A DNA stretch of 64,000 nt from Anaerolineales bacterium (GTDB lineage Bacteria > Chloroflexota > Anaerolineae > Anaerolineales > UBA11858), in NCBI GenBank assembly GCA_028278545.1, contig JANQED010000132.1, forward strand, positions 1 through 64,000. Reading direction: 5' to 3'. The translations under genes were made by a program, and so were the position numbers. The notes under the pieces were generated by a model. That model was not told where the DNA came from. It did no database searches and saw nothing but the letters and a program-made list of their open reading frames with translations. Position 1 is the stretch's first letter, and each line of letters starts with the position of its first letter. Of the stretch, positions 8,743 through 42,690 are shown piece after piece.

Positions 8743-10236
8743 CTACTGTTCCAGCACCACCATAAGCCCGGTCATCAAATCCGCCGTAGAGGGCTGGCGG
8801 CCACCCTCCGCAGCACAGCGTGTTTGGATGGCATCGGTGATGGCTCTGCACATCGCCCCGGCCTTAGTCTCATCCATCCCTGGGAAGCCGAAAGCCAGTA
8901 CGGCGCGTGAATCTTCGGGGTGCAGGCCGCCGTGGATGCCGGTGATGGGCGCGCCGAAGTAAAAGCCCTCGGCATAGTTGCTGATGAGCAGCAAATCACC
9001 CGTCATGGGGCCAGCCAGATTGTTCAGGCGGTGGACAGGATCGCTGTAGAGACGTTCCGGTGGAACGTCTCTACAGGTGACGAACCATTCTTCTAATGAG
9101 GCCATTTCACCTTCTGGCGTCAGCGCGCGATAAGGGGCGTACCAACCATCATTTTCGACATCCCGAATCAGCACCCCTGCTAAAGCACCCTGGACTTCCT
9201 CAGCGTATTTCCCAGTAGTATGAGCTTCCCAAAAAGCACGCCCCACCGAAAGCACGTCCCGTTCAAAATCGGGGACAGCAGCCCATCGCCCCTGGCGGTT
9301 CCGCAGGTAAACATAAGCCAAGCCCCCATTGGAAGCGACCACCGCATCACAATTGGGGTCTTCACCAGGGTAATCGTGGACATCTAATCCCAGCGCATCG
9401 AAAAGATGACCCAGCTCGCGTTCATAGGGAAAAGCCAATCGCAGGGAGTGGCGGTCGTCGGGGATGACTTCGATTTGACCATGGTCGGAGAAGAGGGCAA
9501 CTAGCACGGAGCGATCAGTGGTTAGCGACGCTATCGCATCCCACAGTGCGCCGATCATCGGGTCAACATAGTCAACGAGATAATCCATTTGCGCACCGGG
9601 GCCGTGGATGTGTGACTCGTGGTCCAGGCCCAAGAAGTGGATGGTCAGGATATCAGGCATACCGTGCTTATCCAGGTGATTGAGCGCATCGTCCAAAATA
9701 CGGCGGTCGTATTCTGCGGAACTGAGGCCGAAGAGGTTCCCACCTTTCGTAAAGCGGGCCAGATCGGTCAGCGAGGGCTTAAGCCAGGTTCCCGCGCCGG
9801 CAGCGTACATGTTGCCAGCCACCACTGAACGCCAGCCTCGTTCAGCCAGGTGTTGGTATAGGGTCGGCCTTTGCAGACAGCGGGCTGCCAGGCCATCGGT
9901 AAAGACACGCACAGCGTCATCGACGGCAAGCGTGTCCCCAACGTCGAAGGCGTAGTGCCGCGGCACACCATTGCTGTGAGTCCCGAAACGATCAAAGAAC
10001 TGATTCCCAGGGATGCCATGCTGTGAGGGATGAGCCCCGGTAAAGAGAGAGGCCTGGGAGCAGAAGGTGATGCTGGGAGCGGTCGCCAACACAGGGATTT
10101 GCGCGCGGCACGCAACTTCAGGCCCGCCCAGCAATCGAGAGATATGGGGAATACGATCTTCAGTTAGAGCGCTCTCGAACACATCCCGGCGCAGGCCGTC
10201 TATGTCGATCAAAAGAAGCGCAGGAGAAGATGGCAT
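8743..10236 (-). CDS. alkaline phosphatase superfamily / type I phosphodiesterase-nucleotide pyrophosphatase
   Basis: LLLIDIDGLRRDVF...SLFTGAHPSQHGIPGN...LTIHFLGLDHESHIHGP...ALFSDHGQ. Confidence 0.87.
   Translation of the reverse strand: MPSSPALLLIDIDGLRRDVFESALTEDRIPHISRLLGGPEVACRAQIPVLATAPSITFCSQASLFTGAHPSQHGIPGNQFFDRFGTHSNGVPRHYAFDVGDTLAVDDAVRVFTDGLAARCLQRPTLYQHLAERGWRSVVAGNMYAAGAGTWLKPSLTDLARFTKGGNLFGLSSAEYDRRILDDALNHLDKHGMPDILTIHFLGLDHESHIHGPGAQMDYLVDYVDPMIGALWDAIASLTTDRSVLVALFSDHGQIEVIPDDRHSLRLAFPYERELGHLFDALGLDVHDYPGEDPNCDAVVASNGGLAYVYLRNRQGRWAAVPDFERDVLSVGRAFWEAHTTGKYAEEVQGALAGVLIRDVENDGWYAPYRALTPEGEMASLEEWFVTCRDVPPERLYSDPVHRLNNLAGPMTGDLLLISNYAEGFYFGAPITGIHGGLHPEDSRAVLAFGFPGMDETKAGAMCRAITDAIQTRCAAEGGRQPSTADLMTGLMVVLEQ
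9044..9076. repeat. 33-nt palindromic element inside the CDS
   Basis: CTGTAGAGACGTTCC-GGT-GGAACGTCTCTACAG: perfect 15-bp stem, 3-nt loop. Confidence 0.9.
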
Positions 10237-29418: not shown

Positions 29419-29461
29419 AAGAACCGTGTGCTTCCAATAGAAGGCACACGGTTCTTTGTTT
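29419..29461 (+). terminator. Rho-independent terminator
   Basis: AAGAACCGTGTGC (29419-29431) pairs with GCACACGGTTCTT (29444-29456), followed by TGTTTC. Confidence 0.8.
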
Positions 29462-40815: not shown

Positions 40816-42690
40816 TTACGCGGCCTGCGGAATCGGCGTGCCGCCGCTCTTCTCGACAGGCGGCGGGAAAATATCTTCGAATTCCTCACGCGTCAGCGTC
40901 TCGACTTCAATCAGTTTATCGGCGACTTCGTCCAGCTTTGCGCGGTATTTCGTCAGGATTTGTTTGGCTTTCTCATAGGACTCAGCCACGATCCTGCGCA
41001 CTTCGTTATCGATTTGCTCTGCCACTGACTCGGAATAATCGCGCTGCTCGGAAATCTCCCGGCCGAGGAAAATCAACTCCTCTTTTTGACCATACACCAT
41101 GGGGCCAAGGCTCTCGCTCATCCCCAAACGAGTGACCATGGTGCGGGCCATCCGAGTGACACGCTCTAGATCATTGGAAGCGCCAGAGGTGATATCACTG
41201 AAAACCAACTCTTCAGCCGCTCGTCCGCCTAACAAACCAATCATATCGGCGATGAGCTTCTTCTTCGGCATCAAGGTACGGTCGTTTTCCGGCAAGATCA
41301 GGGTATAGCCGCCGGCCTGCCCGCGGGCCGTGATCGACACCTTGTGGACAGGATCACCCTCGGGTAAAGCGTTGGTGACCACCGCGTGCCCCGCCTCGTG
41401 ATAGGCAATGATGCGTTTTTCACTGTCGCTGATCAGCCGGCTCTTGCGCTCTGGACCGGCGATAACTCGTTCAATCGCTTCCTCAAACTCGTCCTGACCG
41501 ATCACCTTTTTATCGCGGCGGGCGGCCAGAATGGCGCCTTCGTTGACCAGGTTCTCGATATCTGCACCGACGAAACCAGGCGTTGCCCGGGCCAGAACGG
41601 CCAAATCGACTTCATTGTCCAGGGGTTTGCCCCGGACATGTATCCCCAAAATAGCCTCTCGGCCGCGCACATCAGGGCGATCTAAGACCACGCGGCGATC
41701 AAAGCGGCCCGGTCGCAACAAAGCCGGGTCTAAGACATCAGGGCGGTTGGTGGCTGCAACGATGATCACGTTCGTATCGGTGTCGAAACCATCCATCTCC
41801 ACCAACATCTGGTTGAGGGTCTGCTCACGCTCGTCGTGGCTGCCGCCTAATCCGGCGCCACGTTGACGCCCAACAGCATCGATCTCATCTACGAAGACAA
41901 TACAAGGCGAGTGGCGCTTGGCCTGTTCGAATAAGTCACGCACCCGGCTGGCCCCCACTCCAACGAACATCTCTACAAACTCAGAACCGGAGATGGAGAA
42001 GAACGGCACACCAGCTTCACCTGAAACAGCTTTAGCCAGAAGCGTCTTGCCTGTCCCCGGCGGGCCAACGAGCAGCACCCCTTTGGGAATGCGCGCCCCC
42101 AATGCGATGAACTTCTCAGGTTCCTGCAAAAACTCGACCACTTCCTCTAATTCAACTTTGGCTTCTTCGACACCAGCCACATCTTCAAAGGTCACAGTTG
42201 GCTGATCCCCAGAGAACATGCGCGCCCGAGATTTACCAAATGCCATAGCGGCATTGCTGCCACCCTGCGCTTGACGGAAGATGAACCAGAACATCGCCCC
42301 CAGGAGAACAACGGGAGCCACATAGCTTAATATAGTGATCACGCCAACCCACTGGCTAGGGGGTTGTACTTCGAATTTTACATTTTGTGGGTTCAGTTCC
42401 TCCGTTGTGACACCAAAAGCCTTGAGCTGTTCCACCAAAGTTGAAGCGGGTTCTTTGTAAGCAGAACCCTCCGTGCCATCTTCATAAATAACCCGAATCT
42501 CATTATCATCGCTGACAATCCGAGTGATCTCACCCCGCTTGATCTGCATTGCCAAATCGTTGATCGTCAACACTTCTTGAGAAGTCACATTTTGACGGTA
42601 ATTGAAGAACAACAGAATCGCAATGGCGACGATAAAGAGGATGTATATAAACGACGAACGGTTTCTAGACGAATCCACAGATACCTCCAA
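40816..42690 (-). CDS. ftsH: ATP-dependent zinc metalloprotease FtsH
   Basis: [28 protein letters not shown]...[13 protein letters not shown]...YHEAGHAVV. Confidence 0.98.

Follow-up and report, generated by a model that had tools for sequence, protein, structure and literature searches.

A probable double-foot GTAG REP translated in frame within a phosphodiesterase gene of an Anaerolineales bacterium

Introduction

A phosphodiesterase gene in the genome of an Anaerolineales bacterium contains a perfect hairpin that is translated together with the rest of the gene, and the locus raises the question of where such a palindrome came from and what it has added to the protein. The window analysed here is the whole stretch of 64,000 nucleotides in which the gene lies. 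Both the element class that we consider and its in-frame insertion are already published. GTAG REPs, a superfamily of 24 numbered families, are known from Chloroflexi and Cyanobacteria, where the foot of the repeat gives TAG stops to neighbouring genes and where intragenic copies are translated (Di Nocera et al. 2013, PMC3733652). Double-foot REPs have been linked to subclass 2.4 of the TnpA_REP transposases, with in-frame copies within the tnpA_REP genes themselves (Quentin et al. 2018, PMC6006769). A literature search for the literal GTAGAGACG, the arm of the hairpin core, returned only unrelated papers among the matches listed.

Results

A perfect hairpin is read through in a phosphodiesterase gene

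The features of the locus are as follows.

9044 to 9076, no strand assigned: perfect hairpin with a 15-bp stem and a GGT loop, made up of a 29-nt core and a CT/AG extension on each side
9046 to 9074, no strand assigned: 29-nt core, GTAGAGACG-TTCC-GGT-GGAA-CGTCTCTAC, a pattern shared with 12 further loci in the host and with many related genomes
8743 to 10236, minus strand: type I phosphodiesterase/nucleotide pyrophosphatase gene, 497 aa, frame unbroken, Pfam PF01663
9046 to 9075, minus strand: codons for CRDVPPERLY read from the hairpin, the final LY (CTC TAC) being the ancestral Leu-Tyr codons of orthologs

The two arms, CTGTAGAGACGTTCC at 9044-9058 and GGAACGTCTCTACAG at 9062-9076, enclose the loop at 9059-9061, and both this structure and its reading as CRDVPPERLY without a frame break, with codons running from 9075 down to 9046, are exactly as the initial annotation had described them. 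The PF01663 match of the phosphodiesterase (E 3.3e-27) covers residues 7-370. The core has GTAG at the 5' foot on both strands, that is, a double foot. No other perfect small-loop stem in the window is as long. An arithmetic estimate gives about 8e-4 perfect 15-bp stems with a loop of at most 12 nt per 64 kb of random DNA, and the stretch folds as single-stranded DNA at −18.3 kcal/mol as compared with −6.4 ± 2.0 kcal/mol in shuffled sequences (z −5.9); the initial annotation had judged such a stem very unlikely from coding sequence by itself. A half-site with two mismatches at position 41964 is within chance. By inspection no direct repeats were seen at the flanks, where a target duplication is also not expected. 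A classical MITE, with the TIRs of a DDE insertion sequence and a target-site duplication, was rejected, as the locus has neither flanking direct repeats nor a longer element body.

Two further perfect hairpins in the window look like terminators: an 11-bp stem at 27-52 (AAATACCCCTA/TAGGGGTATTT) beside a tRNA-like sequence, and a 13-bp stem at 29419-29456 (AAGAACCGTGTGC/GCACACGGTTCTT) with a 12-nt loop that is followed by T-rich sequence.

The hairpin belongs to a dispersed family

Searching the 3.95 Mb host genome for the core with free inner bases, GTAGAGACG-NNNN-NNN-NNNN-CGTCTCTAC, gave 13 loci, namely 12 places with both arms and one further diverged copy; these counts come from pattern searches, which overlook copies that are spaced differently or have more than 3 mismatches. 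The copy count proposed in the initial annotation therefore yields a family, though the exact 13-nt arm has no second occurrence in the host genome. L003 and L004 show a longer spacing or a composite form. The flanks differ between loci, except that L008 and L009 resemble a segmental duplication. Judged from the ORF layout, 12 loci are intergenic and only the window copy lies inside a gene, so that in-frame insertion, as had been envisaged, would be the exception in this genome (1 of 13). The 12 other copies adjoin unrelated genes, and the foot supplies the TAG stop of both convergent genes at L007 and of one gene each at L014 and L060. The family is thus dispersed and multi-copy, albeit modestly at 13 loci; REPs often exceed 100 copies per genome. 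A palindrome that arose by chance in coding sequence could appeal to the partial counterparts of the peptide (RD..E.LY) in the same-genus genome G016, but it is refuted by the family copies, with no match in the host genome for a reversed control pattern, and sits badly with a perfect 15-bp stem of such folding energy; we give it practically no credence.

To see what the family conserves, we compared 79 distinct copies from about 20 genomes, allowing no more than one outer-arm mismatch; the search itself fixes the outer arms, which leaves the inner pairs as the informative ones. Here the stem differs between copies (CG/TA/AT/GC), and its positions pair in 95-99% of copies counting G-T: pair 10/20 is CG in 39, TA in 25, AT in 5 and TG in 6 copies, pair 11/19 is CG in 42, TA in 26 and AT in 5, and pair 12/18 is CG in 64 and GC in 10. 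The conserved feature of the family is its structure, with inner pairs that change together. Of 158 flank halves, 76 have a T just before the foot, against 22% expected; as both halves of a locus are not independent of each other, the p-value of this excess is optimistic.

The hairpin was found in 25 of 250 genomes of the order and in 37 of 397 of the class, as well as on cyanobacterial plasmids of Kovacikia and Nostoc (97% and 86-87% identity), in agreement with the likeness to cyanobacterial and Chloroflexota palindromes that the initial annotation had pointed out. Its presence is patchy, with no copy in five of six same-genus genomes and two diverged ones in G016. The 67 hairpins from other genomes include several that are embedded in Pfam-supported genes, where a domain flanks or surrounds them, and the window case is thus one of a class that includes the following.

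L195: in-frame hairpin in an E2 acyltransferase linker
L181: in-frame hairpin in a CO-dehydrogenase flavoprotein
L176: in-frame hairpin in an OppC-type permease
L179: in-frame hairpin in a heparinase II/III protein
L183: in-frame hairpin in an HMG-CoA reductase

In the genome G003, the palindrome is extended at six loci (L069, L017, L019, L021, L022 and L070) by 5-12 paired bases that differ between copies, several of which have direct repeats of the half-element in front of them.

Relatives carry the hairpin inside RAYT transposase genes

In G001, G003, G148 and G123, the latter two found by searching the 250 order genomes with the RAYT protein, the hairpin lies in frame inside an ORF for RAYT/TnpA_REP, a HUH Y1 transposase, and always in the loop after the HUH motif (MPNHxH). 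A RAYT gene in G199 is split over two contigs at the hairpin, and G003 has a second hairpin cluster just upstream of the RAYT start. The NHxH, WQ and YIxNNP motifs of these enzymes match TnpA_REP subclass 2.4, which is characterised by NH[IFV]H, WQ and YIxNNP (PMC6006769). Copies beside and in frame inside a subclass 2.4 tnpA_REP gene were thus found in these four relatives and not in the host assembly.

Of 30 RAYT loci across the order, 20 hold a palindrome with a score of 11 or more in this loop, the best score elsewhere in those genes being 9; among these palindromes are other sequences (GTAGGGGCG types), and two reading frames are represented. Among named genomes 9 of 14 have a palindrome in the RAYT loop, three of the nine being the G001, G003 and G148 records again, and the cases include MAGs of Bacteroidota, Melioribacteraceae and Cloacimonadota. 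In the records L118-L147 and L208-L222, most such RAYT genes have an in-frame palindrome after the HUH motif, in several sequence families and two frames, and in L217 the RAYT gene contains a tandem array (ETHGRASRGRASRGRAS...). In the main texts of PMC6006769, PMC3733652 and PMC8266576 we found no mention of a fixed RAYT loop that uses two reading frames, and we claim no priority. A fixed loop that holds several sequences (GTAGAGACG, GTAGGGGCG, GTCGGGGCG and GCAGGGGCG) in at least two frames is not what selection on a peptide would give, and we raise as a tentative idea that the hairpin might contribute in cis to RAYT function, as DNA or as RNA, and that re-insertion or template-switch correction may repeatedly renew copies like that of the window.

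The host assembly, 85% complete, gave no match to a subclass 2.4-type RAYT at E≤1e-3, and its Y1 genes are of other types. Most hairpin-bearing genomes of the order yielded RAYT homologs and the host (G000), G022 and G023 yielded none, so that the proposal that hairpin-bearing genomes always have a close RAYT was rejected. Since REPs have been reported in genomes that lost their REPtron (PMC3733652), the apparent absence of a host RAYT bears on current mobility and not on the class of the repeat.

Orthologs indicate a small net gain at an apparently tolerant site

The segment from Trp-Phe to Asp-Pro that holds the hairpin has 13 codons in the window phosphodiesterase and 8 or 9 codons in the orthologs of G014 and of three order-level relatives (L073, L074 and L075), which are 65-74% identical to it; it has 13 codons in G016 (same genus, 78% identity) and 16, three more than the window gene, in G019. 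Alignment of orthologs, which the initial annotation had suggested, thus shows that those outside the nearest relative lack the peptide and that most are shorter at this point. The ortholog of L073 reads GAG GAG GGT CTC TAC GTT GAT, with CTC TAC at the end of the 3' arm. The LY of the peptide is therefore ancestral, and the net gain is 4-5 codons and not 11: the protein would have gained a peptide, as had been proposed, but a shorter one. Judged from these alignments, the hairpin site is not a clean 33-nt insertion, the net length change being +12 to +15 nt and not 29-33, and no clean empty-site allele was found among the phosphodiesterase orthologs compared. The ancestral codons at the arm end and the small net change would also be expected if the palindrome had been made in place by a template-switch (quasi-palindrome) mutation around the ancestral CTCTAC codons, with no element inserted, and templated correction would moreover explain stems that vary between copies yet remain paired. 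The 9-nt arms and the C-NNN-G core, however, match the dispersed family letter for letter, which a mutation in place would not give, and we regard such an origin as improbable.

The ortholog in G016 reads ATAGAGATGGGCTGAGCGAGAGTCTCTAT, with TAGAGA and TCTCTA 15 nt apart in the register of the window gene. The site looks like an eroded copy or relic of the hairpin, to be read with the caution that a chance 6-nt match is not negligible; the same genome has a perfect ATAG...CTAT variant at another site (L058). If it is a relic, the insertion would precede the split of the window lineage from G016, and the stem of the window, still perfect at a silent-site divergence (dS) of about 1.8 between the two genes, would hint weakly that the hairpin has been renewed since. 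The same perfect stem, together with the apparent relic, could be taken to mean that selection maintains the hairpin where it is, as an RNA or DNA signal for the phosphodiesterase operon (an attenuator, an mRNA stability element or a protein site), but the orthologs of G014, G038, G181 and G025 are without it and the remaining host copies accompany unrelated genes, making a local signal very improbable.

Single-sequence structure prediction of the phosphodiesterase was uninformative (mean pLDDT 36), and its PDB relatives span the core and not the insertion site. It is thus from the orthologs and the Pfam limits that the hairpin appears to lie in a length-tolerant segment downstream of the Pfam domain. 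In the same-genus genome G015 another small repeat, NTGCAAAC in three copies with an 8-nt period, occupies the same spot of the orthologous phosphodiesterase (L027, G015:C256, about 2660-2720), after which the frame breaks into another ORF; the repeat is found at one other site in G015 and at one in G019. The segment therefore seems prone to the insertion of small repeats.

Discussion

The hairpin is shown to belong to a family with paired stems, it lies in frame, the gene differs from its orthologs in length at this point, and relatives link the family to RAYT; we therefore consider it highly probable that the window copy is a double-foot GTAG REP, tied to RAYT/TnpA_REP, that was inserted in frame in the phosphodiesterase gene and is translated. 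Against this we count the missing subclass 2.4 RAYT of the incomplete host assembly, the want of a clean empty site and the longer segment of G019. The REP/MITE-like insertion that had been proposed is largely supported, as a REP of a particular kind and not as a generic MITE.

The window hairpin resembles double-foot REPs (PMC6006769) in its long stem, with GT[AG]G at the 5' foot and the complement, C[TC]AC, at the 3' end; unlike the subclass 2.4 REPs described there, it lies in an unrelated gene and its host assembly shows no subclass 2.4 enzyme. The host repeat shares with GTAG REPs (PMC3733652) the GTAG foot, the short hairpin, the location at gene ends, the TAG stops and the translated intragenic copies, whereas typical GTAG REPs have one unpaired foot and in the window the foot is part of the perfect palindrome. 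Rickettsia palindromic elements are likewise small palindromes that lie in frame within protein-coding genes; RPE-4 and RPE-6 of R. conorii have been assigned to intragenic CGTC-class REPs and RPE-1 to longer insertions (PMC3733652). The CGTC repeats are without a RAYT link, unlike the GTAG hairpin family.

A REP would be a tiny non-autonomous element moved by TnpA_REP/RAYT, a HUH single-tyrosine enzyme acting on single-stranded hairpins, a mechanism that we assume because TnpA_REP enzymes bind GTAG hairpins as single-stranded DNA and cleave at CT dinucleotides (PMC8266576, Corneloup-type biochemistry). Copies are normally found between genes, and that of the window would have entered the length-tolerant, open-frame segment of the phosphodiesterase, where translation of the insert would account for the few residues gained. 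The mobilising enzyme was presumably a RAYT of the subclass 2.4 type that acted in trans or has since been lost, the insertion probably being older than the split from G016 and near-neutral for the enzyme.

The window case is thus a well-documented example of how a mobile hairpin turns into coding sequence, a sister species having a probable relic of it, and it widens the range over which double-foot REPs are recorded in Chloroflexota. The hairpin fixed at one site of the RAYT genes in more than one frame offers a clean test of whether an embedded REP regulates or feeds its own transposase.
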